A stretch of 64,000 nucleotides of DNA from Cryomorphaceae bacterium (lineage in GTDB: Bacteria; Bacteroidota; Bacteroidia; Flavobacteriales_D; Crocinitomicaceae), in contig JAIXUE010000022.1 of the NCBI GenBank assembly GCA_027483605.1, positions 106,136 through 170,135 of the forward strand. Direction: 5' to 3'. Shown piece by piece: positions 6,824-44,249 of this stretch; position 1 is the first letter of the stretch; every line of letters begins with the position of its first letter. The translations under genes and the position numbers were made by a program. The notes under the pieces were generated by a model, which was not told the origin of the DNA, searched no databases, and saw only the letters and a list, made by a program, of their open reading frames with translations.

Positions 6824-6824
6824 G

Positions 6825-7895: not shown

Positions 7896-7914
7896 AGTCG
7901 TATTTAATCAGGGT

Positions 7915-7944: not shown

Positions 7945-7982
7945 CCAACATCTATCAATGAACAAACTGACGCCAATCATGT

Positions 7983-8011: not shown

Positions 8012-8032
8012 TTTCATCGTAACAAAGACATT

Positions 8033-8971: not shown

Positions 8972-8987
8972 TTAAATTTATAAGACG

Positions 8988-9275: not shown

Positions 9276-9277
9276 AG

Positions 9278-27606: not shown

Positions 27607-27701
27607 TGCGAAAAACAAAACTCCTTTAAATTGCAGTTGCGAATTTCAATAATGGATAATTGCACTCAAGCAATAGATTTGCCGTTCGTGCAATCATTAA
27701 A

Positions 27702-27733
27702 TTGTGTGTTTATCGAAAAAAGTGTATCTTTTG
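27702..27733 (+). promoter_or_regulatory. Candidate promoter of the biosynthetic cluster
   Basis: TTG at 27702-27704, a 20-base gap, then TATCTTTTG at 27725-27733, which is TAnnTTTG with one extra T. The ATG of the first gene is at 27741. The imperfect -7 and long spacer suggest a weak or regulated promoter. Confidence 0.4.
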
Positions 27734-27740
27734 CTTTGCT

Positions 27741-28226
27741 ATGAGATTTTATTTAGTTGACAGAATAGAAGAAATAATCCCTGGTCAAAAGGCATCAGGA
27801 ATCAAATGTTGGACTTTATCTGAAGATTACTTTGCCGAACATTTTCCAGGTTTTCCTATCGTACCAGGGGTATTGCAAATCGAAACAATGGCCCAACTCA
27901 TGGGTATACTCATCGAGCATTCACACGCGACGGCATTTCCAGGACAAGGACGCTGTTATCCGATCTTGAGCATTGTTCAAAAAGCCAAATTTCGAGACGT
28001 GATCATACCAGGGGACCAAAGTTTCATAGAAGTAACGCTAACATCGCTCGACACCATGCGCGCAACGGGCAGCGCCAAATTACTAGTGGACGGAAAGGTA
28101 AGAGCTGAAGCCGATTTGAGTTTTACTATTTTAGAGGCAAAGCAAGCGAGTAACAATCCGTTCATTGGTCAGCGAGACGAGTATTATTTAGCCTTAAATA
28201 TCAAAGAGACGCTTAAAAAACGCTAA
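27741..28226 (+). CDS. FabZ-like 3-hydroxyacyl-ACP dehydratase
   Basis: 161 residues from the ATG at 27741 (MRFYLVDRIEEIIPGQKASG). Hot-dog fold with the FabZ active-site block FAEHFPGFPIVPGVLQIETM: catalytic His at about 34 and Glu at about 48 are both present. It should dehydrate 3-hydroxyacyl chains on an acyl carrier protein. The tail after residue 130 is longer than in housekeeping FabZ. First gene of the 13-gene cluster; its TAA shares a base with the next ATG (TAATG). Confidence 0.88.
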   Translation: MRFYLVDRIEEIIPGQKASGIKCWTLSEDYFAEHFPGFPIVPGVLQIETMAQLMGILIEHSHATAFPGQGRCYPILSIVQKAKFRDVIIPGDQSFIEVTLTSLDTMRATGSAKLLVDGKVRAEADLSFTILEAKQASNNPFIGQRDEYYLALNIKETLKKR

Positions 28227-29254
28227 TGCTCGCTACTATTTCGGCTATTGGATTTTGGGAGAGCGATGTGTTTTCTGCCGACGGAGCCTTGGGGCCGCGC
28301 GCAGCATTATCGCTTAATCAGGCAACCACTCAGCGACAGCTTCCTGATTTAGATGCGGCTTTTCGGCAACTCGTCCTCGATGCTACGCATCCGAATTATC
28401 CAAAGCTCAGCGACCTCAAAATTTTGCGAAATGATACTATTGCGGCCCTTATTCTGACTCAGCAGATGCAGGTGTTGCATCAATGGGATCAATCTTTTAA
28501 AGAAAAGGGTGCTTTATTGGTGGCCAACAGCAATTTTATTGATGACGATGTACTCGATTTTGAGTCAATCGCGCAGGCCGTGAGTCAGCTTCAAAAAGCC
28601 CATGACCCATCCACTGAGAATAAATTATTTGGCACGGGTATTTCACCTTTGTTGCCGCTGAGAACACTCACCAACGGGGCGCAGAGTTTTATTGCGCAGT
28701 ATTTAGATTTTTACGGGAGCTCAACAACCTATGGCAGTACGGCCATTGCCAGTATGCAGGCGCTACGAGATGCATGCAACTTGTTGCAGATCAAAGTATG
28801 CCCTGTCGTTTTAGTAGGTGGTTGTCATTATGCTAATTTGTTTTCATTTCTCAATAATTGTTTGCTCTTAAAAGACACGGTTGGTTATGCTGAGGCAAGT
28901 GCAGCGAGTTTTTTTATGTTGACACCATTTGACGGACAGGCAGCTGGTAAAAATTGTTTACACATCTTACATTTCTATAAGCACCTCGACGAACTTCTTG
29001 ACGAAAGTGCCGATTGGTTATTCTATGGTGGTGCATTCACACCACTTCAAGACAAGGAATTGTTAAACAGTTGCCAACAATTACAATATACAGCAGCATT
29101 TAGCTGGTTTGCCCACACGGGCAACTTAGGTGCTGCCGAACTCGGAATGCTGCTCGCAGCAGCTGCCAATTGGCTGTTAAAAGACCAAACTGCAGTAGTG
29201 GTGCTTCAAGACGCGTATGGCGTTGTTGAACTTTTTAAAGTACAGAAGGCATGA
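28226..29254 (+). CDS. Degenerate ketosynthase, chain-length-factor-like
   Basis: 342 residues, shorter than a full ketosynthase (about 410). Thiolase-fold landmarks remain: ISPLLPLRTLTNGAQSFIA, GSTAIASMQALRDACNLL before PVVLVGGCHY, and a late FAHTGNLGAAELGMLLAA resembling the GHxxGAAG strand. No Cys occupies the nucleophile region (the paralogue next door has TACSSS there) and no NAHGT motif is visible. This is what is expected of a partner subunit such as a chain length factor that dimerises with the active ketosynthase. It overlaps that gene by 4 bases (ATGA). Confidence 0.7.
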   Translation: MLATISAIGFWESDVFSADGALGPRAALSLNQATTQRQLPDLDAAFRQLVLDATHPNYPKLSDLKILRNDTIAALILTQQMQVLHQWDQSFKEKGALLVANSNFIDDDVLDFESIAQAVSQLQKAHDPSTENKLFGTGISPLLPLRTLTNGAQSFIAQYLDFYGSSTTYGSTAIASMQALRDACNLLQIKVCPVVLVGGCHYANLFSFLNNCLLLKDTVGYAEASAASFFMLTPFDGQAAGKNCLHILHFYKHLDELLDESADWLFYGGAFTPLQDKELLNSCQQLQYTAAFSWFAHTGNLGAAELGMLLAAAANWLLKDQTAVVVLQDAYGVVELFKVQKA

Positions 29255-30519
29255 GCAGGTTAAGGGCATATGTATTAGATACCCATACACTGAGTCCGCT
29301 GGGTTTGGGTAGTTCAGCACTACTAGCGTCTTTAAAAGATCAAAAATGTGCTGCTGCGCCGATCACTCAATTTGACCCAGCTGGATTGCCGCAAACGAAT
29401 GCTTGTGAGGTGAATACTGCCGATATTCATTGTATTGAGCAACTAACCGAGGCCTGGCAAATAGTTGCCACCAATGACCGAAAGTTTGCACTTTGGGCAA
29501 GTGTGTTACAAAGTAAACGAGCTGAACTTCAAGCGCTCTTTGGTAGTTGTCCAAAAGAAAGAACGGCTCTTTTTTTGGGTTTGGGTGCCAATGCTTTTCC
29601 CGTTCAGCGCATTGCGATGTCGGTCGCTGACTACTCAGCTTTTGGACTGAATGAAGCTATTGCCGAACTCAATTTTTATAATGGTAAAAAAGCTAATTCA
29701 ATCTTTAATCATGCCGATTTATATGGGACTTACTTTCACCAAGAAATTGCACCATATGGATTTTGTCGCAATTTAATGACTGCGTGTTCAAGCAGTACCC
29801 AAGCACTTGCTTTTGGGGCAGCACAAGTTATGTCGGGTCAAGCGGATTTAGTTTTGGCAGGTGGAACCGATTCAATTATCAACCAATTTGCCTACATCTC
29901 TTTTGGTAAATTAGGTGTGCTGAGCCCCGACCGCTGCAAGCCTTTTGATACTGGCCGCAATGGCACCATAGCAGGTGAATGTGCAGGATATACGCTACTC
30001 GCTTCAGAAGATTTTGTGCGCAGGCACGGCTTGCAGCCCCAAACTGCACTAATTGGTTTTGGCAATAGCATGGATGCTTATAAAATTACGGCTCCCGATC
30101 CAAGTGGGGCAGGTGTGGAACGTGCGGTGCGCAGTGCGCTGCAAATGGCTCAGCTAGCTCCCGAGGCAATAGATTACATCAATGCACACGGCACAGGAAC
30201 GCGTTCCAACGACGAAGCTGAGCTGCGTGCCATTGAACGTGTAATGGGCTCTGCAGCCGCCCAAATTGCAGTGAGTTCAACCAAAGACCGTCATGGTCAT
30301 GCCATTGCAGCTGCCGGCATTCAAGAATTCCATGTGCTAACAACCTGTATGACCAACGACCTTATTGCGGCAAACCTCAGTTGCGTCAATCCTATACAAA
30401 CAACACTGGAGTTGCCATTTGAAACAAACCGGACTAAAAAAATCAAGTATGCTCTCACTAATAATTTTGCATTTGGCGGTGTCAATTGCAGTTTAGTCCT
30501 TGAAAACTTAAGTTTATGA
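29251..30519 (+). CDS. Beta-ketoacyl synthase (KAS I/II type)
   Basis: 422 residues with an intact Cys-His-His triad: Cys179 in NLMTACSSSTQAL, His313 in NAHGTGTRSNDE and His350 in KDRHGHAIAAAG. Other landmarks are VLAGGTDSIINQFAYISFG and the terminal NNFAFGGVNCSLVL. It would extend the chain by decarboxylative condensation. Clear relationship to ketosynthases of type II fatty-acid and aryl-polyene-like systems; the pairing with a Cys-less subunit immediately upstream suggests a heterodimer. ATGA overlaps join it to genes on both sides. Confidence 0.92.
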   Translation: MSRLRAYVLDTHTLSPLGLGSSALLASLKDQKCAAAPITQFDPAGLPQTNACEVNTADIHCIEQLTEAWQIVATNDRKFALWASVLQSKRAELQALFGSCPKERTALFLGLGANAFPVQRIAMSVADYSAFGLNEAIAELNFYNGKKANSIFNHADLYGTYFHQEIAPYGFCRNLMTACSSSTQALAFGAAQVMSGQADLVLAGGTDSIINQFAYISFGKLGVLSPDRCKPFDTGRNGTIAGECAGYTLLASEDFVRRHGLQPQTALIGFGNSMDAYKITAPDPSGAGVERAVRSALQMAQLAPEAIDYINAHGTGTRSNDEAELRAIERVMGSAAAQIAVSSTKDRHGHAIAAAGIQEFHVLTTCMTNDLIAANLSCVNPIQTTLELPFETNRTKKIKYALTNNFAFGGVNCSLVLENLSL

Positions 30520-31271
30520 ATCTAGATTTAAAAGATAAAGTAGTATGTGTTACAGGTGCGTCTGGTGGCATAGGTTTGGCTATTGTCCGTGCTTTTTTGC
30601 ATGAGGGCGCGCTAGTCTGTGCAACTTATCACCGCAATCCAGATAAGATTGAACAGCTTAAGATGCAGCTAGAACCTTCGCTGCGCACGCATTTGCATGC
30701 CTATCATTTGGATCTTCAAGACAACCACAGCCACAAGACTTGTATTTCCCATATTTGTGCTGAGCAGCAACGAATTGATGTTTTGGTCAATTGTGCGGGC
30801 GCCGCTTTAGAAAAACCTTTCTTACTTTTAACGCCGGAAGAAATCACTCAGCAGATGACCACGAATTTTAGCCAACAAGCACTTTTCACCCAACAAGTAG
30901 CCAAAGTGATGCTTGCACACCGAAAGGGGAGTATTGTCAATGTTTCGAGTTTACTTGCAAAACGCTTGGGTAGAGGAGTAGCAGTTTATGCTGCTGCGAA
31001 AGCAGCTATTGACCGTTTCACACAAACCCTGGCTTTAGAAGTTGGAAAGAAAGGCATCAGGGTAAACAGTATCAATCCTGGGCTAATTGCGACAAAAATG
31101 AGTAAAAATATTCAAGCAAATATGCCAGCTGATCTCATGAATATGAGCCCAATTTCAAGACCCGGCACACCTGAAGAAATTGCAAATGCCGTCCTGTTTT
31201 TAGCCTCAGATCGAGCAGCTAGTTACATCACTGGTGTTTGTCTGTCCGTAGACGGCGGACTCAGTATTTAA
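30516..31271 (+). CDS. FabG-like 3-oxoacyl-ACP reductase (SDR)
   Basis: 251 residues, classical SDR: VCVTGASGGIGLAIVRAF cofactor loop, VLVNCAGAALEKP, catalytic Ser in VNVSSLLAKRLG and YAAAKAAIDRFTQ for Tyr-x3-Lys, ending ASYITGVCLSVDGGLSI, the FabG-type C-terminus. It would reduce the 3-oxoacyl product of the ketosynthase. Genomic position between ketosynthase and carrier protein supports the ACP-dependent role over a general SDR. Confidence 0.92.
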   Translation: MNLDLKDKVVCVTGASGGIGLAIVRAFLHEGALVCATYHRNPDKIEQLKMQLEPSLRTHLHAYHLDLQDNHSHKTCISHICAEQQRIDVLVNCAGAALEKPFLLLTPEEITQQMTTNFSQQALFTQQVAKVMLAHRKGSIVNVSSLLAKRLGRGVAVYAAAKAAIDRFTQTLALEVGKKGIRVNSINPGLIATKMSKNIQANMPADLMNMSPISRPGTPEEIANAVLFLASDRAASYITGVCLSVDGGLSI

Positions 31272-31292
31272 ATCAAATTTCATAATCTAACC

Positions 31293-31688
31293 ATGACACA
31301 AAACGAAGAAATTATCGAACAAATCAAACGCATCATCCAGCAATCTTGTGGAATAGACCCTGAGGTAATGCATGCGCATTCAACGATATTTGATGAATTG
31401 AGTATAGATTCGATTGATATGGTCGACATCTTGTTTCAGCTTGAAAGACACTATGATATAGAGCTAAAAATTTCAGAAATAGAGCAGCAGTCAAAGGTAG
31501 AAATGGGGGATGAGCCATTTGAGATCAACCAAGTCATCACTGCCAAAGGTCTAGAGGTGTTGCGTCGCCGTATGCCAGAGATAGATCCCAACGCACTCAC
31601 GGAGGGCCTTACCATGTTTGAAGTCATTAAATTGATCAATATTCAGAGTTTGGCAAATATGGTGCTGCATCAACTCGCAAAGAAATAG
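31293..31688 (+). CDS. Acyl carrier protein, long form
   Basis: 131 residues. The first 60 match an ACP: IIEQIKRIIQQSCGID then the phosphopantetheine site ELSIDSIDMVDILFQLE, with Ser40 as attachment point. Ordinary ACPs are about 78 residues; here an acidic segment (about 60-95) is inserted and a fourth-helix-like end (LTMFEVIKLINIQSLANMVL) closes the domain. The insertion may tune recognition by the cluster's own ketosynthase pair. Twenty-one bases follow fabG and four precede the next gene. Confidence 0.85.
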   Translation: MTQNEEIIEQIKRIIQQSCGIDPEVMHAHSTIFDELSIDSIDMVDILFQLERHYDIELKISEIEQQSKVEMGDEPFEINQVITAKGLEVLRRRMPEIDPNALTEGLTMFEVIKLINIQSLANMVLHQLAKK

Positions 31689-31692
31689 TACC

Positions 31693-32829
31693 ATGCAAGG
31701 AGTCGTATACCGCGTCGCTGCACAAGAAAAGCTCTACGGCTTCGGTGATTCTATTTTGGATGTTCCAATTTTGAACGAAAGTTTAGGGAACTATCAAGCC
31801 CGCATTTGTGCGCAATGTGGCTTACAAATCATTGATGTAGCCACACGAGCAGAACTGCCTAGCACAGATTTTCCGCTTTGGTATTTTGACGCCAAGATGG
31901 TTTTTACCCTAGATTTTTTGAAGTTGGCCATTCAACGAGCCAAAGATGACCCAACGTCATTTTTGCAATTTGGTTTGAAAAAGCATCCGTCTATTCAGCA
32001 ACACTCTTTACCGCTCGCTCCAAACGATAAGGATCTATTGTTTCCTTTTTTTTTCAAAGGCAGTGAATCAAAGCAAGCCACAATAATTCAATTAGAAGGC
32101 AAAGAGTATGACTGGCAAATTCACATGCCAAGTCAGGTCATGCCTGGAGGTGTTTACAGTTTGAATCAAAATGCAGTTTTTGCTACCTTGCTCTTGTCCC
32201 CATTTCATTTGCATGGCGCAAATATGGCCCTGAATTTGAACAGAGGTTTAAAGCTTCAGGCACTGCTCCCGGATTGGCTGCGGAAACGTATTTCCAAACC
32301 ATTTACCAAACTGACCTCTATTGGTTTGAAATCCATGAACCAAAAAGGGAAGAATTGTCGGATCCATCCGACTGCAGTGGTAGAGGGTTGTGTGCTCGGA
32401 GATGACGTCACCATCGGAGCCAATGCGGTATTGCGCATGAGCATGATTGGCAGTGGAACTTTTGTCGGCGATACAGCCGTGGTGAGTTTCTCTGTAATTG
32501 GCGCCAACAATTTTGTCAGTACGGGTAACCACTTGGTCAATAGCATGACTTATCCTTCTGTTTTTACAATCCACGGACCTTATCAATACAGCATTTTTGG
32601 TCAACACTCAGCGGTCTTTGCTACTATCAATTCCGATATCAGACTCGACACAAAAACAATTAAAATTCCGACGGAAGTTGGTGTCTGCGATTCAGATCAA
32701 ATTTTGCTTGGCGTGGCTTACGGACACCGATCAAAAATAGGTGGTTCGAATATCATTGCAGCTGGCCGCTTGGTGCCAAATGATTACGTGCTGAATCCGC
32801 CAAATTTCATTACCTTGAACTTTGACTGA
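31693..32829 (+). CDS. Left-handed beta-helix protein, possible degenerate nucleotidyltransferase fusion
   Basis: 378 residues. A hexapeptide-repeat region lies at about 215-290 (CRIHPTAVVEGCVLGDDVTI; IGANAVLRMSMIGSGTFVG; VVSFSVIGANNFVSTGNHL). The first 200 residues faintly resemble a sugar-nucleotidyltransferase (ILDVPILNESLGNYQARICA) but lack the GxGTRL-type nucleotide loop. Hexapeptide proteins often transfer acyl groups from ACP or CoA, which would suit a position right after the ACP gene; this is inference. No specific family recognised. The stop shares a base with the next ATG (TGATGG). Confidence 0.6.
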   Translation: MQGVVYRVAAQEKLYGFGDSILDVPILNESLGNYQARICAQCGLQIIDVATRAELPSTDFPLWYFDAKMVFTLDFLKLAIQRAKDDPTSFLQFGLKKHPSIQQHSLPLAPNDKDLLFPFFFKGSESKQATIIQLEGKEYDWQIHMPSQVMPGGVYSLNQNAVFATLLLSPFHLHGANMALNLNRGLKLQALLPDWLRKRISKPFTKLTSIGLKSMNQKGKNCRIHPTAVVEGCVLGDDVTIGANAVLRMSMIGSGTFVGDTAVVSFSVIGANNFVSTGNHLVNSMTYPSVFTIHGPYQYSIFGQHSAVFATINSDIRLDTKTIKIPTEVGVCDSDQILLGVAYGHRSKIGGSNIIAAGRLVPNDYVLNPPNFITLNFD

Positions 32830-33908
32830 TGGCAAGCACTACCTTTTTAATCGGCGCATATGGTTACACGGCAAAGCTGATTGCCGCAAAAATGGCGGAG
32901 GCCAATTTGTCATTTATTGCTGTTGGTAGAGATCAGTCGAAACTCGAGCAAGTGCTGCAGGGCTTTGCTAATTGTGTTGGAATCATAGTTGCAGACTGTC
33001 AGGATGCTGCAGATTTGGGTTTTGTGGCAGAAGGAGCAATAGTTGTGAACTGTGCGGGACCTTTTAACCTATTTGCCCCACAACTCATCAGCAAATGTAT
33101 AGAGGTTGGCGCGCATTATCTCGATATCACCGGTGAACAAGAAATTGTGCGCCAAAGTTATGAGCACTATGCAGCACTTGCTATACAAAAGCAGGTTTGT
33201 ATTGTCCATTCAATGGCTTTTGAATCTGCTCTGTCTGATTTGCTTTTGAGTCGGGCTTTACAGCAAATCAATCCTTCAGAGATAGAAGAAGTACTGTCCT
33301 ATTATCAGTTAGGGAGCCAGCAAATGAGTCCTGGAACCAAACTGACCATGAAGTTAGCGAACTATGCTCCAAATTACATAGTGGAAGACCAGTGCTTGTC
33401 GCCATTCGTGCATCAAGCTGCGCACGTTCCAGCAGGGCTGCCCTTCGAGGCGGCCAGAATTGTACCTTATCCAGAAGTCATTTTTGCATATGAACGTCTG
33501 AAACCAAAGCGCGCGGCATCACATTTTGTTGTTGAACAAGGGAGTAATCTAGCTTTTACAGGTAACTTAGCGCAAGCAGCGCCTAAGCAAAAGACACCGA
33601 TCGATTCCATCATTGATCGCTTTAAAAAGGTTGTGCATGTTGGGCCTGATGCAAACGCACGAGCGGGGCAAACATTTGATCTCTATTTGTTGGTGCGCAC
33701 CACACACAAAGACCATATGGAGTCGATTGCCGGCTCTAATATGTATGAGCTAACAGCAGCCCTAGTGGTGCTGGCGCTTCAACGCTTCGGGCTGTCAACG
33801 CTTCATTTAGGCGTACAGAGTCCTGGGCAGTTTTTGGGGCAAAGTGGCTTGAGATGGCTCGCTAACAACCCCTATTTTCAATTCAAAAACCATCAACCAA
33901 TAAAATAA
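32829..33908 (+). CDS. Saccharopine-dehydrogenase-fold NAD(P) oxidoreductase (possible trans enoyl reductase)
   Basis: 359 residues. N-terminal Rossmann loop FLIGAYGYTAKLIAAKM, then VNCAGPFNLFAPQLISKCIE and AHYLDITGEQEI, the signature of saccharopine dehydrogenase NADP-binding proteins. Mycobacterial trans-acting enoyl reductases and some polyketide-associated proteins share this fold. In this cluster it could supply the enoyl reduction otherwise missing from the KS-KR-DH set. Lysine biosynthesis is unlikely given the context. One base separates it from the next gene. Confidence 0.72.
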   Translation: MASTTFLIGAYGYTAKLIAAKMAEANLSFIAVGRDQSKLEQVLQGFANCVGIIVADCQDAADLGFVAEGAIVVNCAGPFNLFAPQLISKCIEVGAHYLDITGEQEIVRQSYEHYAALAIQKQVCIVHSMAFESALSDLLLSRALQQINPSEIEEVLSYYQLGSQQMSPGTKLTMKLANYAPNYIVEDQCLSPFVHQAAHVPAGLPFEAARIVPYPEVIFAYERLKPKRAASHFVVEQGSNLAFTGNLAQAAPKQKTPIDSIIDRFKKVVHVGPDANARAGQTFDLYLLVRTTHKDHMESIAGSNMYELTAALVVLALQRFGLSTLHLGVQSPGQFLGQSGLRWLANNPYFQFKNHQPIK

Positions 33909-33909
33909 G

Positions 33910-36636
33910 ATGCAAAAACTTAAGTTCACGATGCATTTATTGGTTTTCCCAGCCCTACAGCTATTGGTTATACTGGGTTTAATGATCTGGCCACTCTCCA
34001 CTATTGGCTCAATTGCTTTGGTTTTCCTTGCTGCGTTTTTGCTCAATTGGAATTTACACGTGAGTGTGCATCATTTAGTCCATCATCCGCCGAAAAACTT
34101 GGTCATCCGTCATTTGTGTTACCTGATTTCCTCTTTAATGTTAGGGCTCCCTTTTCATTATTATCAGCTCATTCATCGAAATCACCACGCCTATAATAAT
34201 GAACAAGGTGATTTTACCAGTACTTGGTCCATTCAAAATGGCCAATTGGTTCCTAGACCTTTCTGGACTTACGTCTTGTTCTGGTGGTTGCCCCAAGTTT
34301 CTATTGGAACACAGCTCAAAGCTGCTCGGTCTGCGGGTTGGTTGAGCCCAAAAGGTTGGCGCTTGCTTAGTTTGGAATTACTTGCAATTTTTTTGTTTTA
34401 CGGTTTGCTTTTTTTGTGCTTCGGTTGGAAAGTCCTGTTGTATGCCCTTCTTGTTTATTTGGGCTGGGTACTCATCAGTGCTCAAAATTATGGTCAGCAC
34501 TTGCCAAAAGACGTTCAGATCCAGACAACAAGTGTACACAAGAAGTGGTACAATTGGCTAACACTCAATAATGGTTTACACCACGAACACCACCAAAAAC
34601 CACAGTTAACTTATGATCGTTTGGAGAAAAATCAACAATTAGAGGTGCTTCAAACGCCACATTTAAGTGCTGGATTTTGGCCCAATAAGTGGCGAGGCAG
34701 TTTTGTACTTGCTTTATGTATTATTATAGGCCTGCTCACGCAGCTCCCAAATCTACAAATGACCGGTAGCCTTGACGGTTTTGCTGTTGGGGATACACAA
34801 GTATTTAAAGATGCACGCAACTATGATTCCATTTTTGGACAGAGTAAATATCGGTACTATTGGAGTATCACGCCTAGTGCAAACGGCAAGTTGAGTTTTC
34901 TGACTTCTTGTACTCAATTTGAACAAGATCTCAAAGAACTGGCACCTTCCCTCGAGTTCATTACCTCAGCTCGGCAATTGCGTAAATTTGCTCAGCTTCG
35001 CTTGTATTCCAAGCAAATGAGCGCACAGCAATTTTTAAAAATTGCTTCACAACACCCCCAATTAGGCAAACTCATTTCCAAAGATGGGCGATCATTTATT
35101 GTGATTGGAGACTTTAAAGGGACTTCAATTCCACTGAAAAAACTGGCTAAGTTAGAACAACAATCACGCCTGCAAATAGCGCAAATCAGAGGTTTTGGAA
35201 TTCAAGGTCTTGAGGCAGCTATCGCTAGCTCAATGCAGGACGATATCATCACTATAACTGGGCTCATTTTCATTTTGTTTGGGGCTTATCTATTCTGGCG
35301 TTACCGTCACATGAGTGCCATTCTTTACTTAGTGACGAACATGCTGTTATCTATATTGATTACGCTTTGTTTGTTTCCCCTTTTTGGTTATCAAATGACT
35401 GCAGTGAGTATTCTTGCTCTTCCTATTGTTCTGGTGCTTTCTTTGAGTGATGTCGTCCATTTACTTGGAGGCATCGCAAAGGGTCAATCGAGTACTGCTA
35501 CCATTTCAAAAATTTGGGTTCCATCTTTACTGAGCAGCCTGACGACCGCTATCGCATTTTTTAGTTTTCAATTCAATGATGCTCCTAATATGGTCCAGCT
35601 TGGAACCGTAACTGGTACCGCAGTCATACTTGAATTTTTAGTATCCGTTGCATTGGCGCAGCAATTTTTACACAAAGTGCGTTTGCGCAAGGAAGAAAGC
35701 CCAGTCATCATGAATACTAGTCATTTTTTGGAGCGTCATCAAAAAACCATTGGTTGGGGCTTGTTGGGATTGGTGTTGGTTGCCCTTTTATTGCTACCGA
35801 AGCTTCGTTTTGAAGCGACTACCGACGATTTTTTTCCGGACGGACATCCTGTAACGCAAGAGCACGCCTATTTCAAGCGCCAATTTGACGCACAAAAAGT
35901 ATTGCATTTGTGGTTTGATAAACAGCAAGATGAAGCGCAGCAGCGCAGTGAGATAGAGCTTTGGCTACAAAAACAAAAAGCCCCACAACTCATCGGTTAT
36001 GACATCCAAAGCCAAGTATCTGGCCTGCCCACAACGGTAAACATGTATTTTTCAGACATTAAGGCAATAGGGGTTTATTACAGAAGACTCGAACGAGATG
36101 GATTTTTAAAGCAAAATGACTTAGGCCTTCACGCTTACAGCACATTTGTGGTATTTGATGTAGTGAATCAGCAGGTGGCTTCTTCTTTGTTTTGGAGTTT
36201 GTTAACTGCCAGTTCTGCAATTGTTTTACTGATGTTATGGTTGACAAAAAATCCTCTTCAAGCTTTGATTGGTTTTTTGCCCAATTTAGTGCCACTTGCA
36301 GCTGTCGTAGTGGTTTTTGTGGGCTTAGATCAGGGTCTTAATATGCTCACTGCCCTCACTTTGGTGGTTTGTGTAGGCCTGCTCGACGACGACACCATAC
36401 ACGTTTTGTATCAAAAGTATGTGCTGCGCGCACCAGTTGCCCAAATGAATCCGATCATCATTCATGCGGCAGTGTTGCTTGCCTTAGGTTTTGGATGTTT
36501 TATCTTAAGTAATTTCAAGCCAACACGCCTGTTTGGTGGTGTGAGCGCATTGGTTTTTGTGGTGGGTCTCTTGGGAGAACTCACCCTATTTCAATGGATT
36601 TTAAACCAATTCAAGCAGGATAGTCATGAGCAATAA
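33910..36636 (+). CDS. Fatty-acid desaturase fused to RND/MMPL-type exporter
   Basis: 908 residues, uninterrupted. Residues 1-250 are a membrane fatty-acid desaturase/hydroxylase: histidine boxes HHLVHH (54-59), HRNHH (89-93) and HHEHH (224-228) for a di-iron centre. From about 262 a new helix begins an RND/MMPL-type permease: a loop domain to about 440, helices with LSLSDVVHLLGGI, a second loop after FEATTDDFFPDGHPV, and helices with VGLLDDDTIHVLYQK. MMPL proteins export lipids and occur in aryl polyene clusters. The fusion implies an acyl product that is desaturated or hydroxylated and exported by one polypeptide. Overlaps iorA by 11 bases. Confidence 0.82.
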   Translation: MQKLKFTMHLLVFPALQLLVILGLMIWPLSTIGSIALVFLAAFLLNWNLHVSVHHLVHHPPKNLVIRHLCYLISSLMLGLPFHYYQLIHRNHHAYNNEQGDFTSTWSIQNGQLVPRPFWTYVLFWWLPQVSIGTQLKAARSAGWLSPKGWRLLSLELLAIFLFYGLLFLCFGWKVLLYALLVYLGWVLISAQNYGQHLPKDVQIQTTSVHKKWYNWLTLNNGLHHEHHQKPQLTYDRLEKNQQLEVLQTPHLSAGFWPNKWRGSFVLALCIIIGLLTQLPNLQMTGSLDGFAVGDTQVFKDARNYDSIFGQSKYRYYWSITPSANGKLSFLTSCTQFEQDLKELAPSLEFITSARQLRKFAQLRLYSKQMSAQQFLKIASQHPQLGKLISKDGRSFIVIGDFKGTSIPLKKLAKLEQQSRLQIAQIRGFGIQGLEAAIASSMQDDIITITGLIFILFGAYLFWRYRHMSAILYLVTNMLLSILITLCLFPLFGYQMTAVSILALPIVLVLSLSDVVHLLGGIAKGQSSTATISKIWVPSLLSSLTTAIAFFSFQFNDAPNMVQLGTVTGTAVILEFLVSVALAQQFLHKVRLRKEESPVIMNTSHFLERHQKTIGWGLLGLVLVALLLLPKLRFEATTDDFFPDGHPVTQEHAYFKRQFDAQKVLHLWFDKQQDEAQQRSEIELWLQKQKAPQLIGYDIQSQVSGLPTTVNMYFSDIKAIGVYYRRLERDGFLKQNDLGLHAYSTFVVFDVVNQQVASSLFWSLLTASSAIVLLMLWLTKNPLQALIGFLPNLVPLAAVVVVFVGLDQGLNMLTALTLVVCVGLLDDDTIHVLYQKYVLRAPVAQMNPIIIHAAVLLALGFGCFILSNFKPTRLFGGVSALVFVVGLLGELTLFQWILNQFKQDSHEQ

Positions 36637-38443
36637 TAAGGTCCAATTACAAGCGCAAAAAGTTTGGGCCCTCAATGGCAATGAGGCGCTGGCTTATGGT
36701 GCACTGCATGCAGGCGTTGCTTATTTTGCGCATTATCCGGGTTCGCCGGTAAATGGAATAGAACCAGTATTGAAACAACTCAATGCACAGCATGCCGCGC
36801 AAATCACCTTTAACGATGCACTTAATGAGCATGTTGCCGCTTGTGCTGCCATGGGAGCAAGTATGGCGGGTGCACGCACGATGCTCGTTATGAAACATGT
36901 GGGGCTGAATATCGCTGCAGACCCACTCAACTATGTAGGTTACGCTGGCATTAAAGGTGGAATGTTAATAGTGGTGGGCACTGACCCAGGAGCTAATTCA
37001 AGTACCGGAGAAGAAGATGTACATTGGTATGCCAAACAATTCAACTTACCACTATTTGAACCCACCAGCCCGCAGGGGCTTTATGATTGTTGTATAGATG
37101 GCTTTGCGCTATCTGAAGAGCTCGGCTTACCTATTCTTGTTTTTGCTACTGGTCTTATCTGCCATCAAAGTACCCGAATTCAGACACGGCAAAAAGCATT
37201 TGCACCGCGTCAATATTTTTTTGAAAAGGACCGAGATCGCTATATCAATGTGGGCCAACGGGCCGTGCAAAACCACCGCTTATTGCTTGAAAAAATAGCG
37301 ACATATGCCAACACACACGCTTTTTTTGAGGTAACTGGTCCGAAATCACCTCCCTTAGCAGTCATTACCAGAGGCAATACGAGTTTACATTTTCCGGAAA
37401 TCAGAACACATATTCCCCAATTAGCCAATTGCACCTGGATTCAACTCACCGGGGTTTACCCATTGCCCACCATGGCTTTGTTACCCTTGCTTCAAGACAA
37501 AACAGAGATTATCATCATGGAGGATCAAGACGGTTTTGTGGAGTATTTACTTAAAATGGAGTTGTTCAATACCCTCAAAGCCAAAATTCAGGGGAAGAAT
37601 TTGTTTCCAGCGCATGGCGAATTGCGCGTTAATGAATTATTGGCCATTCTCTGTAAGCACTTTGAGCTCCCATATCCATATGAGGGCTTACCTAGCTTGC
37701 CCATTCCTGAGCGCCTAGGTACTTTTTGTGAGGGTTGTCCGCATACGGGAAGTTATTTTGCCATAGAGCAGGCCTTACCTGAACAAGAACGCATCATTGG
37801 AGGAGACATTGGGTGCTCTTCCTTGCCACCTTTTCGGGCAGATTGGTTACTGTGTATGAATGCCGGAGTTGGCTTAGCACAGGGCATGGCTCCATTTGTA
37901 ACTTCGCAAAAATTGGTCTCTACAGGTGGCGATGGTAGTTTTTTTCACGGTGGTTTACTTGCTGTACTCAATGCTGTTCAAAATAAAGTCAATTTGGTTC
38001 ACTTAGTTTTTGACAATAAAAGTGTCGCCATGACCGGTCACCAAGCTTCAGCATCTACCCAAGTTGCCTATGCCGATTTGCTAGAGGCTTTAGGGGTTAC
38101 TTCTTTTGCTGAGGCTAGTGCTTTTCATCCAAAGGAATTGGAGGCATTGGTAAGAGAAAAAGAACAACTCGATGGTGTTCATGTCATTTGGGTGAGTGGT
38201 GCATGCGCGCGAATTCCAGATGCCCGCGCGAACTTTAGACGTGCTACCTACGCACCGCAAATCGATGCCAGCAAATGCGCCTCATGTACCCTGTGTTATG
38301 AGGCTTTGGCTTGCCCTGCGATTGATCAAAATGATTTAGGGCAGTTTCAAATCGATTTATCGCGCTGTATGCGCTGTGGTGTGTGTCATGAAATTTGCCC
38401 GAACGATGCCATCGATTTGGGAGCTAAAAACATGAAAGCATGA
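36626..38443 (+). CDS. iorA: Indolepyruvate-type 2-oxoacid:ferredoxin oxidoreductase, alpha subunit
   Basis: 605 residues. N-terminal pyrimidine domain (NEALAYGALHAGVAYFAHYP), TPP domain with GGDIGCSSLPPFR and the GDG...N thiamine motif VSTGGDGSFFHGGLLAVLN, and a C-terminal two-[4Fe-4S] ferredoxin: Cys551/554/557/563 and Cys581/584/587/591 (CMRCGVCHEICP). It oxidatively decarboxylates 2-oxoacids to acyl-CoA with ferredoxin reduction. Classical IorA acts on aryl pyruvates; specificity here is unknown. In this cluster it could make the acyl-CoA starter. ATGA overlap with iorB. Confidence 0.9.
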   Translation: MSNNKVQLQAQKVWALNGNEALAYGALHAGVAYFAHYPGSPVNGIEPVLKQLNAQHAAQITFNDALNEHVAACAAMGASMAGARTMLVMKHVGLNIAADPLNYVGYAGIKGGMLIVVGTDPGANSSTGEEDVHWYAKQFNLPLFEPTSPQGLYDCCIDGFALSEELGLPILVFATGLICHQSTRIQTRQKAFAPRQYFFEKDRDRYINVGQRAVQNHRLLLEKIATYANTHAFFEVTGPKSPPLAVITRGNTSLHFPEIRTHIPQLANCTWIQLTGVYPLPTMALLPLLQDKTEIIIMEDQDGFVEYLLKMELFNTLKAKIQGKNLFPAHGELRVNELLAILCKHFELPYPYEGLPSLPIPERLGTFCEGCPHTGSYFAIEQALPEQERIIGGDIGCSSLPPFRADWLLCMNAGVGLAQGMAPFVTSQKLVSTGGDGSFFHGGLLAVLNAVQNKVNLVHLVFDNKSVAMTGHQASASTQVAYADLLEALGVTSFAEASAFHPKELEALVREKEQLDGVHVIWVSGACARIPDARANFRRATYAPQIDASKCASCTLCYEALACPAIDQNDLGQFQIDLSRCMRCGVCHEICPNDAIDLGAKNMKA

Positions 38444-38991
38444 GCCAAGAATTGCGCATATTGGTAGCGGGTATCGGAGGGCAGGGCATTCATGGCTTTG
38501 TACGGGTACTGCAACAAGAAATGGACGAACAAGGTTTTGAACTCATTTGTGCCCGCTATAAGGGAGGAGCACAAAGCCTAGGTTCTGTGCATGCCGAATG
38601 CAAAGTATTTTTGACAAAAGAGCAGTCCAATACGCAGCAAAGTAGTCAGTTGATACCTGGAACACTCGATATCTTGCTTGGCCTCGAACGCTGGGAAACC
38701 TTGCGTTTTTTGCCTTTTTGCCATGCCAAAACGCTCATCGTTTGCGATGCCTTCACAGAATTCCCCCCAGGAACCAAAAGACAAATAGGGCTCCCAACCA
38801 TAGACTCCTATTTTACCCAATTAGACAATCCATTGATATGCAAGGATTTTAATGCACTTGCAAAAGGAAAAGGCTTGTCTAAATCAGCGGTGCCCGTCTT
38901 GTTGTTTAATGAGGCAATTGATGCACTTGGACTGAAACAACTTATTGAACCACTTAAAACAGATACATATGAATTGGAAAGAAAGCTCTAG
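38440..38991 (+). CDS. iorB: Indolepyruvate-type 2-oxoacid:ferredoxin oxidoreductase, beta subunit
   Basis: 183 residues, the POR/IOR gamma-type domain: ILVAGIGGQGIHGFVRVLQQ glycine-rich start, ICARYKGGAQSLGSVHAECK and DILLGLERWETLRFL. It completes the IorAB enzyme with the gene just upstream (4-base overlap). The RYKGGAQS segment is close to the EVHGMAQR-like position of IorB proteins but not identical, so substrate preference may differ. Confidence 0.88.
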   Translation: MSQELRILVAGIGGQGIHGFVRVLQQEMDEQGFELICARYKGGAQSLGSVHAECKVFLTKEQSNTQQSSQLIPGTLDILLGLERWETLRFLPFCHAKTLIVCDAFTEFPPGTKRQIGLPTIDSYFTQLDNPLICKDFNALAKGKGLSKSAVPVLLFNEAIDALGLKQLIEPLKTDTYELERKL

Positions 38992-40336
38992 AGTGGCCAT
39001 GCATTGGCATCCTCATGAAAATGGCAGTAAAATTGTTTGTGACCTTTGCCCAAGACATTGTCAGACCCAAGCGGGTCAGATGGGATTTTGCAAGGTACGT
39101 GGAAACGTAGATGGTACTTTTCACACTTTTAACTTCGGTAAGTCGGTGACGGCTACCCAAGAGTGTATAGAGACCGAGGCAGTCAATCATTTTATGCCTG
39201 GCGCACGTATTTTGAGTCTTGGCAATATCGGTTGCATGATGGCTTGCTCGTATTGTCAGAATTGGCAAACTTCTCAAATTAAACACCTCAATGATGCCAA
39301 TGTCTTTGAATATACTCCAGAGCAAGTCATTGAATTAGCGGTCTCTAATGATATCAAAGTCATTTCTTGGACCTACAATGATCCGGTTGTTTGGCACGAA
39401 TTTGTATTAGAAACTTCAAAACTTGCCAAAGCAGCAGGGCTTACGACCTTATATAAATCAGCGCTCTACATTGAGCTTGAACCGCTGCGCGAATTAATTG
39501 AAGTGATTGATATCTTTTCGATTTCACTTAAATGTATGGACGATGCTATTTACCGAAAAGAAAACAAAGGTAAATTACAGCCCGTACTAGATGCCATAGA
39601 ACTGATTGCCGCCTCTGACCGCCATTTGGAAATTTCGCAATTGGTCGTAACGGGTCTCAACGACGACGGCACTGATGCCATCAAAACGGCGCGTTGGATG
39701 CGCGAAAAGCTCAGGCCGGAGGTCCCACTTCATTTGGTGGCGTATCACCCGAGTTTTAAGTATAAAAAACCGCGCACCGAATTGGCAACACTTCTGAAAT
39801 TGCGTGAACTCGTCCTCAATGAAGGATTAGAGTATGTGTACTTAGGTAACGTATATGCCGACGACATGAGCAATACGTATTGTAAATCATGTTCAAACCT
39901 CCTCGTGGAGCGCTTTGGTCTTTCTGTGCAGGTGCCCGGACTCGATGCGCATGGCAATTGTAAAAAATGCCAAACACCATCTGTCATTAAAGATGCATTG
40001 GGTGGACAACCTACAGAAAAGCCCGTTGCCACACCTTTTGTTTCTGCACAATCACAAACTTTTGAGTGGAACGATGAAATCAGGTCTGTACACATATTCT
40101 TGGACCAACCCAAAAAGGAAACCGTACGCATCAGGCTGACACGTCTGCCTAAAAATTCGGAACAATATTTAGAATTAAACGAGGGGCTCGAGCGCATTAT
40201 TTTGTCTAAAAGTAGTGCTGACGAGACACAGCTCATTATCGAAACTGCTTGTCAAACAACGCTGCATATTTTACCGGTACTCGATCGCGCGCATTTCCCT
40301 GTGATTGATGAAACAAAAGCGTCGAGTTATGCATAA
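38969..40336 (+). CDS. AmrS-like radical SAM protein with C-terminal extension
   Basis: 455 residues from the ATG at 38969, which overlaps iorB by 23 bases; the TTG in the ORF track is less likely. N-terminal cysteine set CDLCPRHCQTQAGQMGFC (Cys24, 27, 31, 41) and VRGN are the AmrS hallmark. The radical SAM cluster is Cys89-x3-Cys93-x2-Cys96 (CMMACSYCQNW). Later CKSC and CKKC pairs form a zinc-ribbon-like knuckle near 310-340. About 110 residues follow without recognisable family. Usual partners AMMECR1 and MEMO are absent nearby. Reaction unknown. Confidence 0.82.
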   Translation: MNWKESSRVAMHWHPHENGSKIVCDLCPRHCQTQAGQMGFCKVRGNVDGTFHTFNFGKSVTATQECIETEAVNHFMPGARILSLGNIGCMMACSYCQNWQTSQIKHLNDANVFEYTPEQVIELAVSNDIKVISWTYNDPVVWHEFVLETSKLAKAAGLTTLYKSALYIELEPLRELIEVIDIFSISLKCMDDAIYRKENKGKLQPVLDAIELIAASDRHLEISQLVVTGLNDDGTDAIKTARWMREKLRPEVPLHLVAYHPSFKYKKPRTELATLLKLRELVLNEGLEYVYLGNVYADDMSNTYCKSCSNLLVERFGLSVQVPGLDAHGNCKKCQTPSVIKDALGGQPTEKPVATPFVSAQSQTFEWNDEIRSVHIFLDQPKKETVRIRLTRLPKNSEQYLELNEGLERIILSKSSADETQLIIETACQTTLHILPVLDRAHFPVIDETKASSYA

Positions 40337-41447
40337 ACTGACCCAGATTTTAAAGCAACGTGTAGACACCACGAACGCAGCACCTGTGGTAACGCCCATC
40401 TACCAAAACAGTGCTTTTGAGGCGCATTCACCATTTTTTTATACCCGCAAGAACAATCCCAATGTCGAGGAATTAGAGCAAGTTTTTTGTGCTTTGGAAG
40501 AGTGTGCTCATTCGGTATGTTGTTCTACGGGAATGGCCGCTATTTCAAACACGTTGCTTTTGTTAAAACCAGGAGCTCATTTGGTGATCAACCAACTCAT
40601 TTATGGCTGTTCTTACGTTTTATTTGAAAGGTTCTGTGAACAGTATCAAATACAGCTCACGGTGCTAGACCTTTCCAGCCCTGATGGCATTAGTGCCATG
40701 CCTGAAGATGTCAGTATGGTTTTATTCGAAACACCGACCAATCCTTTTGTGCGCAGCATAGACATTGCAGCCGTTGCACAGCGTGCCAAAGCATGTAATC
40801 CAGCTTGTTTGGTGGTGGTAGACAACACTTGGGCCACGCCTTTATTTCAACAGCCGTTGCTGCACGGTGCAGATCTAGCGTTGTATTCCGCCACCAAATA
40901 CTTCTCTGGTCACAGCGATGTCATGGGCGGGGTACTCACGACCAACGATGAGGCCCTTGCCCAAAAATTGAGAGAAGCACGTTTTTACCATGGCGCCATT
41001 ATGGATCCTAATAGTGCATGGTTATTGCGTCGAAGCATGCAAACCTTTCATATCAGAATGCGTGCACATGGCCAAGCGACTACTCAAATTAGAGATTGGT
41101 TAAAGTTACAAAGTGGCGTGGAAGAAGTCTTTTATCCCAACATAGACGGACATCAGTTAACCGGTTACGCGACCTTATTGTTTTTTACGCTAGATGCCCG
41201 ATTGAGTGAACGATATGATGATTTTGTAGCAGCATTGCAACTCTTTGACACCGGAACAGGTATGGCTTGCGTCACCTCGATGGTTGCGCGCCCTTATACA
41301 GGAAGTCATGCGTCTATGAATGAGCAGCAAAAGCAGCAGATGGGCCTGAACCGTCAATTGGTTCGCCTCAGTATTGGTTTAGAAGAAGTACAAGACCTTA
41401 TTGCTGATCTGCGTCAAGCATTTGATCAAATTGGAGCTCATGATTAA
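40329..41447 (+). CDS. PLP-dependent Cys/Met metabolism (gamma-lyase/synthase type) enzyme
   Basis: 372 residues from the ATG at 40329, overlapping the radical SAM gene by 8 bases. Cys/Met-metabolism PLP fold: VVTPIYQNSAFEAHSPFFYT, PLP-phosphate-binding CCSTGMAAISNTLLLL, VVVDNTWATPLFQQPLLHGA and the Schiff-base Lys190 in LYSATKYFSGHSDVMGG. Members include cystathionine gamma-synthase, methionine gamma-lyase and relatives. In this operon it might release a 2-oxoacid (2-oxobutyrate) for IorAB; alternatively it could install sulfur or an amino-acid moiety. Specificity cannot be read with confidence. Confidence 0.85.
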   Translation: MHKLTQILKQRVDTTNAAPVVTPIYQNSAFEAHSPFFYTRKNNPNVEELEQVFCALEECAHSVCCSTGMAAISNTLLLLKPGAHLVINQLIYGCSYVLFERFCEQYQIQLTVLDLSSPDGISAMPEDVSMVLFETPTNPFVRSIDIAAVAQRAKACNPACLVVVDNTWATPLFQQPLLHGADLALYSATKYFSGHSDVMGGVLTTNDEALAQKLREARFYHGAIMDPNSAWLLRRSMQTFHIRMRAHGQATTQIRDWLKLQSGVEEVFYPNIDGHQLTGYATLLFFTLDARLSERYDDFVAALQLFDTGTGMACVTSMVARPYTGSHASMNEQQKQQMGLNRQLVRLSIGLEEVQDLIADLRQAFDQIGAHD

Positions 41448-42564
41448 TGAACTACAGGACCATCGTATTTTAACACTCAAGTCGATAGCAATTTTATCGC
41501 TGCTTATTTTACACATTGCACTTAGTTTTACTTGGATTCCTCAACTCTACGGCATTTGGCCCATTGGAACCAATACACCGAGTATCAACCTCACTGGATT
41601 AGCCTCCTTTTTAAATCTGTTTGGCCTCCTTTTGTTTTTTATTCTATCTGGATTTTCAATCAGAAAAAAAGCATTTGATCAGGAGCACTACCTCCTTGAG
41701 AAAGTGCAGCAAAATACCCGGCGATTTATTTGGTATTATGTTTTGCTTTCTCTTCTTTTCTATTTGCTTTTGTCTGCTTCAGAATGGCGCTTTTTAACAT
41801 TTTTTGAGTGTACATTTTTAACCTCGTTCTATCATTTGTGGTTCTTAGCTGCCCTTGCTTTTTTTCAGTTACTTCTCGTTTTTGCACGAAAAATTCTAGC
41901 ATCACGACTACAAAACATACGCATCCCTCTTTTTATCCCTTTATCTATTCACGCTTTAGGCCTTTTTTTTCAGGGTGGTGTTTTTCTAAAAACACCGACA
42001 CAATTGGATTCGTCTACGCTTTTAAGTATCGGTGTTTACTTCTGTTGGTTTTTTTATGGTTTTACGCTTTGCAATGGCCCTTTTCGTTTATCTAAACCTT
42101 TTTCGGCGCTCCGAATCTTGGGTGTCATGACTTTGCTGAGCCTTTATTTTATGGCCAAGACGGCGCTTTTGTTTTCTTGGACTTTTGGACTTTTCTGGCA
42201 GCTGCTTGGTTCAGTACTTGATCCTTTGGCATTTTTAGCCGCTTTACAAGTTTGTTTTTGGTTAATCGAAAAATATCATCAACAACGAACAACGCAGTCC
42301 ACAGATTATCTTCAGACTTTTTTACAGCGCTACCAGTTGCCTATTTATGTGTTTCAGATTCCTTTGATTTTTCTGCTCGTCTCTATTCTAGAAAAAATGG
42401 GTGCAGTCTTTTTAACACTTGATCAGTTGCCGCAGGCGCTACCTAACTGGGAGGAATCTTTGTCTACGTGGGGCCTGTTTTATCTGTTATTGCTCTTTTT
42501 TACTTTGGCACTTCTGCTCTTGTGGCGTTATCACCAACAAAAAACCCCTCATTCCAAAGAATAA
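41440..42564 (+). CDS. Acyltransferase 3-like integral membrane protein
   Basis: 374 residues from an ATG at 41440 overlapping the PLP gene by 8 bases. About ten helices, opening ILTLKSIAILSLLILHIALS, then LFFILSGFSIRKKAF and SFYHLWFLAALAFFQLLL, the layout of acyltransferase 3 family members. These transfer acyl groups to exported sugars or lipids. As the last gene it could attach the finished chain to an envelope acceptor. Its stop is embedded in the terminator stem. Confidence 0.75.
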   Translation: MINELQDHRILTLKSIAILSLLILHIALSFTWIPQLYGIWPIGTNTPSINLTGLASFLNLFGLLLFFILSGFSIRKKAFDQEHYLLEKVQQNTRRFIWYYVLLSLLFYLLLSASEWRFLTFFECTFLTSFYHLWFLAALAFFQLLLVFARKILASRLQNIRIPLFIPLSIHALGLFFQGGVFLKTPTQLDSSTLLSIGVYFCWFFYGFTLCNGPFRLSKPFSALRILGVMTLLSLYFMAKTALLFSWTFGLFWQLLGSVLDPLAFLAALQVCFWLIEKYHQQRTTQSTDYLQTFLQRYQLPIYVFQIPLIFLLVSILEKMGAVFLTLDQLPQALPNWEESLSTWGLFYLLLLFFTLALLLLWRYHQQKTPHSKE

Positions 42565-42695: not shown

Positions 42696-44249
42696 TTAGA
42701 ACTTGATGATTTTTTTTGACAATAATTGGCCATTGACCCTTGCCGATACAAAGTAAATACCTTTTGGCAGGCCAAACCACTCATCATTTTGGGTCCCTAA
42801 ATAGAGCTGTGTGGTTCCTGTTTCAGGGGTGAGCTTCATTTTGACTTGGCCGTTGACATCATAGATGAAAATCAAATCGGTCTCGTTTAGTGATAGCGGG
42901 AAAGCCAAGGTGAGGGCCTCTTGTGTCGGATTCGGGTAGGCCAAGATGGTACTGTTGTCGTCGGGTGGGTATTCGTTCAAAGAGGCGCTGATCAGGGCTT
43001 CAAGGTCATAAGTTTCGTCGCCGGGCTGGTAGGGTAAATAATGAAAATAGGTCAAGAACATTTCGTCTGTGGTATTGAAGCCGCTATAGACATTTTGAGG
43101 CGGTGAATTGGGATTATTTGGGTTATTAGCGGTGTTGTCATAGGTGCCCTCGCTTTTGAGTTTGTAGCCGGGCGGCACTTTTTGAATAAACTTAAAAAAG
43201 TAGAAATCTTGCCACATAAAATCCCATTTAGGCACATTGACAAATTTCACGGTGTCAGCACCAGGTTTGTATGCATAAGCTTTGATGCTCGTACCGAGTA
43301 AGTGCATATGTGGAAAAACAGAAAGTACGGAAAAATTGGTAGGAATGGTTTGTGAACCCGGTGGATACGTAGCACTTAATGCCGTGATTTGCCCGGCAGG
43401 TAATACAAAACTGTTGTCGGCTAATAAGGGGCCTGCACTAATTTGCCGCACATTGGTGGTGCCAACAGGATAAAAATGCAAAATCACTTTTGTAGAATCA
43501 AAAAGCCCATACGAACCCATGGGGTAGTGCATCGCAAAGTAAATAGAAGAGCCCGGGCCAATATCTAGCCCCAGTTTAATGGGGTCTGTGGAGGGTAAAA
43601 TCATGGGTGTTGCCCCCGGTGTATAACCCGTTACTAATTTTGTGCTGGCATTGCTAGGGCTCGCGCAATTGCCACCGATGGTGTCAGTTGCCTCTATGCT
43701 GGTTGGGTCGAGGTAGATGAGGCAGTGGTGTACAATTTCTCTGTTGCCAGGTACCACCTCAACGGCTTTGATGATGCGATTTTGTGTGAGGTTGGTTGGG
43801 ATACTGAAGCAAACGTAGTCGTCTTGGGTGGTAGCCTTAGACATATATGTGGGGATCTGCACTTGTAAATCACCATTGCCGAGAAAAGTATTGGAGGTGT
43901 AGACGGGAGGAGGAGGTGTTTGGCTGGCGTTCCCCTCTGGCGCACCGTTATTGAGCCAGTTCATGATGGTGCTTTTTTCGGTAGTAGAAAGCGCGCGGTT
44001 GTGTTGGTATTGTTGGTAATTGTTGTCTGGAGGCCACGGCGGCATTTCGCCTGTATTGATGCATTGATACACCGCAGCAGCCAATGGACTTACCTCTGCG
44101 TGTGTCATGAGTGAAAAAGGTGCTGCTCCACCGGGGTGATGGCAGGCCGTACATTTGTTATAAAAAACTTGTGCGACATCACTGCTCCAAGTTTGGCCTT
44201 GGGTAGTGATGCTAGTTAGAACAAAAAGGGCAAATAAAATACTTCTCAT
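42696..44249 (-). CDS. T9SS-secreted cytochrome/copper type II monooxygenase-like protein
   Basis: 517 residues. Signal peptide, then a c-type haem site CTACHH (Cys33, Cys36, His37) in a small cytochrome-like domain (MPPWPPDNNY; IMNWLNNGAPEG). A copper type II ascorbate-dependent monooxygenase-like region follows, with NREIVHHCLIYLDP, FAMHYPMGS and FPHMHLLGTS supplying His/Met copper ligands. The end (about 440-517: AYPNPTQEALTLAFP; GIYFVSARVNGQLLSKKIIK) is a T9SS type A sorting domain. It is probably a surface or secreted redox enzyme that hydroxylates an unknown substrate. Nine bases follow the upstream esterase gene. Confidence 0.82.
   Translation of the reverse strand: MRSILFALFVLTSITTQGQTWSSDVAQVFYNKCTACHHPGGAAPFSLMTHAEVSPLAAAVYQCINTGEMPPWPPDNNYQQYQHNRALSTTEKSTIMNWLNNGAPEGNASQTPPPPVYTSNTFLGNGDLQVQIPTYMSKATTQDDYVCFSIPTNLTQNRIIKAVEVVPGNREIVHHCLIYLDPTSIEATDTIGGNCASPSNASTKLVTGYTPGATPMILPSTDPIKLGLDIGPGSSIYFAMHYPMGSYGLFDSTKVILHFYPVGTTNVRQISAGPLLADNSFVLPAGQITALSATYPPGSQTIPTNFSVLSVFPHMHLLGTSIKAYAYKPGADTVKFVNVPKWDFMWQDFYFFKFIQKVPPGYKLKSEGTYDNTANNPNNPNSPPQNVYSGFNTTDEMFLTYFHYLPYQPGDETYDLEALISASLNEYPPDDNSTILAYPNPTQEALTLAFPLSLNETDLIFIYDVNGQVKMKLTPETGTTQLYLGTQNDEWFGLPKGIYFVSARVNGQLLSKKIIKF

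Follow-up and report, generated by a model that had tools for sequence, protein, structure and literature searches.

To our knowledge, it is an open question how RND lipid exporters are loaded with their cargo, and the question comes up here with a gene in which a membrane di-iron desaturase/hydroxylase domain and an RND permease appear to have become one protein: is this fusion real, and does it join the making of a lipid to its export? The gene lies in a window of 64,000 nucleotides from a Cryomorphaceae bacterium (Bacteroidota; contig JAIXUE010000022.1, genome G000). Translation of positions 33910-36636 yields one stop-free frame of 908 residues, just as an earlier sequence-only reading had described it, and profile and fold comparisons bear out its further claim that a desaturase and an RND-type permease share a single polypeptide. 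The fusion is genuine and conserved. That oxygen-dependent modification is thereby physically linked to export, as was also proposed, holds for the covalent joining of the two domains, whereas modification and export themselves would follow from family membership. Passed over by that reading were the surrounding operon, an unfused pair of the same genes in a relative, and the non-fused precedents of coupled synthesis and export.

Two membrane domains in one frame

Within the N-terminal domain, residues 37-243 match the Pfam family FA_desaturase (PF00487; E 5.5e-20; 72.6 bits against a cut-off of 29.7), and the three His boxes were found exactly where they had been placed from the letters alone (Table 1). 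Their metal-ligand histidines are conserved in the alignment of desaturase homologues, with H54 and H58 invariant across four homologues and two AlkB-like paralogues. A further motif, NYGQH, absent from the earlier reading, is invariant in all four homologues and lines up with the NYxEH of an AlkB-like paralogue encoded in the same genome. Folded alone, the domain gave a model of moderate confidence (pLDDT 71; low near residues 200-215 and at the junction), for which Foldseek against the PDB returned AlkB and SCD1 as matches 1, 2 and 4, with probabilities of 0.99 (AlkB, 8f6t) and 0.85 (SCD1, 6wf2/4ymk) and E-values of only 0.2-0.5. No match was obtained for the domain in NCBIfam, or in the PDB when searched by sequence with the domain alone or as a profile. 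The domain has PF00487, three His boxes and an NYxxH motif in common with AlkB and SCD1, but these are stand-alone enzymes, and the AlkB-like paralogue is only 26% identical to it (E 0.01). On these sequence features, the N-terminal domain probably desaturates or hydroxylates a fatty chain. It might instead have ceased to be an enzyme and serve the transporter as a lipid-binding, regulatory or membrane-anchor domain, which would suit its short length (about 257 residues) and its being optional beside this RND subfamily; we hold this to be very improbable, as fused and unfused copies alike retain the His-box ligands and NYGQH without change.

From about residue 262 the polypeptide had been read as a two-halved permease, and each half does consist of one TM helix, a periplasmic loop (residues ~286-437 and ~633-757) and a TM bundle. 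A structure prediction, which the sequence-only reading had suggested, was run with AlphaFold2 (pLDDT 71, pTM 0.60, from a 13-row alignment): the RND fold is complete after residue 262, and Foldseek placed MmpL4/5/3 and HpnN on top (~720-860 columns, E 1e-16 to 1e-12; best match to the RND fold E 1.5e-16, probability 1.00). In sequence, this part is matched by the HpnN profile TIGR03480 (E 9.4e-11) and by the solved HpnN structure 5khn (E 3e-8), although it misses the HpnN equivalog cut-offs (40 versus 752 bits for TIGR03480, 28 versus 1100 for NF052374). By these measures its closest relative is HpnN in sequence, and MmpL4/5/3 together with HpnN in predicted fold. The halves are assigned from fold and topology, a profile comparison between them as single sequences being not significant. 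Both LSLSDVVHLL and LLDDDTIHVL, noted previously as equivalent sites, are present and correspond to the acidic motifs of TM4 and TM10; in the alignment of relatives H517 is invariant, D514, T829 and H831 are nearly so, and DDDTIH (826-831) retains at least one acidic residue in every relative aligned. Since Pfam MMPL (PF03176) falls below threshold (E 0.01; 15.2 versus 20.5 bits), a plain Pfam scan would name the 908-residue protein a desaturase only.

Table 1. Features of the fusion gene and of the operon around it, in window coordinates.
Feature	Position	Strand	Basis or remark
FabZ/FabA-like 3-hydroxyacyl-ACP dehydratase	27660..28226	+	PF07977, E 2.5e-19
CLF-like inactive ketosynthase	28226..29254	+	TACSSS, HGTGT (active-site Cys, His motifs) lost
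Ketosynthase, FabF/ApeO-like	29251..30519	+	TACSSS, HGTGT, DRHGH intact
SDR ketoreductase	30516..31271	+	Profile, BLASTP
Acyl carrier protein (ACP), 131 aa	31293..31688	+	C-terminal extension conserved
LbH (hexapeptide) protein, acyltransferase-like	31693..32829	+	PF00132
Saccharopine-dehydrogenase-like NAD(P) protein, candidate trans-acting enoyl reductase	32829..33908	+	PF03435, E 1.1e-9
Fusion gene, 908 aa	33910..36636	+	N-terminal membrane di-iron desaturase/hydroxylase domain and C-terminal RND permease
Desaturase domain, residues 1-257	33910..34680	+	PF00487
His box 1, HHLVHH, residues 54-59	34069..34086	+	H54, H58 conserved
His box 2, HRNHH, residues 89-93	34174..34188	+	Sequence, homologue alignment
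NYGQH motif, residues 193-197	34486..34500	+	Aligns with NYxEH of AlkB-like paralogues
His box 3, HHEHH, residues 224-228	34579..34593	+	Sequence, homologue alignment
Fusion junction, about residues 251-265	34660..34704	+	Alignment with separate G644 genes
RND permease domain, residues ~261-908	34690..36633	+	Profile, alignment, topology, fold
LSLSDVVHLL, residues 510-519, TM4-equivalent acidic motif	35437..35466	+	D514, H517 conserved
LLDDDTIHVL, residues 824-833, TM10-equivalent acidic motif	36379..36408	+	Alignment of relatives
IorA-like TPP/4Fe-4S 2-oxoacid:ferredoxin oxidoreductase, alpha	36626..38443	+	TIGR03336, E 1.8e-119
IorB-like beta subunit	38440..38991	+	Profile
AmmeMemoRadiSam-type radical SAM protein	38972..40336	+	TIGR04337, 290.7 bits, cut-off 220; start codon uncertain
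Cys/Met-metabolism PLP enzyme	40329..41447	+	PF01053, E 7e-96
Membrane acyltransferase, Acyl_transf_3	41440..42564	+	PF01757, E 1.1e-8

Reality, origin and spread of the fusion

A sequencing or assembly artefact that deleted a stop between two genes had been named by the earlier reading as its own caveat, and would be in keeping with draft assemblies (G000 is in 50 contigs) and with the related genome G644, in which there are two genes. Against it, the same fused frame (900-912 residues at full length) is open in two further genomes, on JAIPCC010000007.1 (G011, 77% identity) and VHBC01000005.1 (G602, 61%), at synonymous divergence near saturation. With three independent assemblies in agreement, we rejected the artefact, whose probability is practically negligible. 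All catalytic histidines and the acidic/His motifs of the RND part are kept in the three genomes, whose frames align gap-free at the junction. Between G000 and G011, dN/dS (Nei-Gojobori) is low in the desaturase part (0.07) and the RND part (0.08) and reaches 0.19 over residues 230-270. These values are rough, as synonymous sites are near saturation, and they indicate purifying selection that acts on either domain as well as on the junction. An internal translation start giving two proteins was likewise rejected: the three fused genomes share no in-frame start in the stretch from His box 3 to the first RND helix, so that a separately initiated RND protein with its first helix is unlikely. As a side observation, VHBC01000005.1 (L023) is titled Sphingomonadales, which appears to be wrong, as G602 falls in the genus of the window and shares its exbB/exbD flank.

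In G644, of the same genus, an ancestor-like unfused arrangement is found: a desaturase of 257 and an RND protein of 699 residues are encoded by adjacent genes, of both families and in the operon order of the fusion, but as two frames with a 4-bp ATGA overlap, their products being 39% and 30% identical to the respective parts. From this colinear cluster, the fusion most likely arose from neighbouring partner genes. In the alignment, the free desaturase ends in WPHLIMAFIRKK and the free RND protein begins with MKGIIDILVRKKLLFFIIGM, and in the fused protein TPHLSAGFWPNKWRGSFVLALC leads directly into the first RND helix; as aligned, the fused form has lost the first ~12 residues of the RND protein and gained no linker domain. 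Hydropathy and the model place four main TM helices before the junction, which would give the desaturase an N-in/C-in topology with its end in the cytosol, where the RND part begins. The His boxes of the FA_desaturase family face the cytosol.

Could the joining be neutral, a lineage-specific merger of neighbouring cistrons of one pathway with no coupling beyond equal stoichiometry? Given the 4-bp overlap in G644, a small deletion or frameshift would be enough to fuse the genes; moreover, the fusion is limited to one genus and its junction is conserved less than either core. However, it has been kept between genomes only 61-77% identical in protein, under purifying selection that extends across the junction, and the loss of the RND N-terminus means that a return to separate proteins would require a new start. 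We regard the neutral explanation as a serious contender, though an unlikely one.

The fusion is rare, with three genomes found, all of one genus. A strong match to its profile was obtained in 6 of 240 genomes of the family (three fused, one unfused pair and two with RND only); matches were obtained in 15 of 399 of the order, and in 2 of 396 of the phylum, namely G000 itself and G155; these samples overlap and all lie within one phylum. Other phyla were covered by one exact-peptide scan of genome contigs, plus plasmids and viral contigs, so that more divergent copies of the fusion may occur elsewhere. The plasmid scan revealed no relatives, nor did the scan of viral contigs with only two short peptide patterns. 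In G690, G509, G682 and others no oxygenase gene adjoins that of the RND protein, and the desaturase is thus an optional partner. Its relatives in other Bacteroidia (G893, G839, G823) are stand-alone frames of 315-328 residues, with no operon genes within flanks of ~1.5 kb. G155 offers a second, independent case of the same pairing logic: there an RND gene of this subfamily shares 4 bp with the gene of another kind of di-iron enzyme (PF04116, FA_hydroxylase). Around this G155 pair (L055, 5333-11633) lie a sulfotransferase gene and, reminiscent of OleB/C/D, genes of alpha/beta hydrolase, AMP-ligase and 3-beta-HSD-like type.

The operon and its relatives

The fusion gene belongs to 13 genes (27660-42564) that are all on the plus strand and separated by -20 to +21 bp. 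Their order is fully conserved in G011 and G602, and likewise in G644, except that there an acyltransferase lies upstream instead. Using as marker the ACP, whose C-terminal extension is conserved across the aligned clusters, we located the core cluster in 9 of the 399 genomes sampled from the order. What recurs is FabZ-CLF-KS-KR-ACP-SDH (dehydratase, CLF, ketosynthase, ketoreductase, ACP and saccharopine-dehydrogenase-like protein), and the remaining genes vary. For instance, in G690 the core and the RND gene are followed by genes for CDP-OH_P_transf (CDP-alcohol phosphatidyltransferase), CTP_transf (cytidylyltransferase) and PlsC, which ties this RND protein to lipid assembly; G509 has RND with UbiA and an alpha/beta hydrolase; and G499, G542 and G475, with neither desaturase nor RND in the flanks read, carry an extra gene of ~480-494 codons, a Trp_halogenase-like flavoprotein in the two tested. 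Together, these clusters look like a family of dedicated lipid/polyketide pathways with exchangeable tailoring parts.

Several observations were made alongside. In L065, L066 and L067 the place of the desaturase-RND gene is taken by an alpha/beta hydrolase and the Trp_halogenase-like flavoprotein, the latter tested in L065 and L066, and a halogenated or epoxidised lipid is a possible product. A UbiA-like prenyltransferase recurs with a ~165-residue protein lacking a Pfam match (~60% identical) in L045, L046 and L066, and partly in L050, L065 and L067; RND, a CYTH-like protein and a ~541-residue protein also lacking a Pfam match frequently accompany the two. Downstream of the operon, at 42696-44249, the window encodes a secreted-looking protein with a CTACHH motif and a C-terminal sorting-like tail, conserved at this place in L023.

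The saccharopine-dehydrogenase-like protein, for which a PDB search gave only E 0.11, could be an enoyl reductase, in analogy to Rv2953, the trans-acting enoyl reductase of the mycobacterial PDIM pathway (PMC3089613). The IorA-like protein misses the cut-off of the IorA equivalog TIGR03336 (399.7 versus 650.9 bits).

The core set of aryl polyene (APE) clusters, KS/CLF, DH, KR, ACP and RND, is present together in the operon, which might then be an APE/flexirubin-type cluster with an ApeM-like exporter and a desaturase tailoring the chromophore. The ketosynthase is 35% identical to E. coli ApeO (E 3e-42) and the ketoreductase 31% to ApeQ, the RND gene sits inside a FAS-like cluster as in APE, some relatives have a Trp_halogenase-like gene, and the IorA/B-like genes could supply an aryl-acetyl-CoA starter, though no literature precedent was found for such a starter with an indolepyruvate oxidoreductase. 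Nevertheless, the ketosynthase scores FabF above the APE ketosynthase 6qsp, similarity of the RND part to ApeM reaches only E 0.009 and that of the CLF to ApeC is nil, and homologues of the ApeH-type ligase, LolA-like protein and thioesterase were not recognised among the 13 genes; BLASTP returned no homologue of an Ape-specific ligase, LolA/LolB-like protein, thioesterase or ApeM-type RND among the operon proteins compared. Furthermore, the operon includes a candidate enoyl reductase, an activity for which a polyene would have no use. We therefore rejected APE membership, the core being similar but the specific genes absent, and consider it improbable. Elsewhere in the window, at 5759-10033, two PaaE-like ferredoxin/flavin reductases and two PaaA-/PaaC-like phenylacetyl-CoA epoxidase genes were noted by eye; they share the window with the IorA/B-like genes, which could make arylacetyl-CoA.

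A proposed pathway and its known counterparts

We favour, as probable though far from assured, a model in which a lipid-tailoring di-iron oxygenase is fused to the RND exporter of its own pathway, within a dedicated type II fatty-acid/polyketide operon. Judging from their families, KS/CLF, KR, the FabZ-like DH and the candidate enoyl reductase would build an acyl chain on the operon's ACP, and the N-terminal domain would introduce into this chain a double bond or a hydroxyl group, with O2 and with electrons from a separate donor. Perhaps after the acyltransferases have moved it onto a lipid or another acceptor, the product would enter the RND part from the membrane and be moved, driven by protons, toward the outer membrane. 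HpnN, MmpL and ApeM are thought to move lipids in that direction. If the IorA/B-like proteins act on a 2-oxoacid, they might, as a speculation, provide both an acyl-CoA primer for the synthase and reduced ferredoxin. A bolder version, tentative and rather unlikely in our view, would make the fusion a modify-and-export machine in a single polypeptide, in which the desaturase oxidises a lipid or acyl-ACP and passes the product straight on to the fused RND part, so that oxidation commits the lipid to export, as an undescribed class of Bacteroidota type II lipid operon.

Both halves belong to known superfamilies, and no description of their covalent fusion was found: a literature search that excluded most subscription journals gave no relevant paper on a desaturase-MMPL/RND fusion, in agreement with the earlier statement that these families are known only apart. 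One protein may handle both the making and the export of a special lipid in a small group of Bacteroidota, and the fusion marks a rare lipid operon. With the unfused pair of its own genus as control, this naturally joined gene also offers a clean system for testing whether synthesis and export are coupled.

Such coupling already has precedents in MmpL7-PpsE, MmpL5-AcpM and ApeM. The PDIM pathway, too, uses an RND exporter, MmpL7. This exporter physically binds its polyketide synthase PpsE (PMC1238737), and MmpL5 has been solved with the carrier protein AcpM (by structure titles), which means that an ACP is able to bind to a transporter of this kind; both cases point to direct contact of the exporter with biosynthetic proteins. 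ApeM is an RND protein whose gene belongs to a type II FAS-like cluster, and lipid transport is the role given to it (PMC8253772). The hopanoid transporter HpnN, best sequence relative of the RND part and of the same predicted fold, differs in having no enzyme domain; the RND part scores far under its cut-off, and the 13-gene operon contains no hopanoid genes. ApeM comes with KS, CLF, DH, KR and ACP as here, but is a separate protein of marginal similarity whose cluster carries APE-specific genes that were not recognised in ours. Nearest in predicted fold are the mycobacterial lipid exporters MmpL4/5/3/7, which belong to another phylum and have no desaturase domain: there, the link between synthase and exporter is made by protein-protein contact, whereas here desaturase and exporter are covalently joined.
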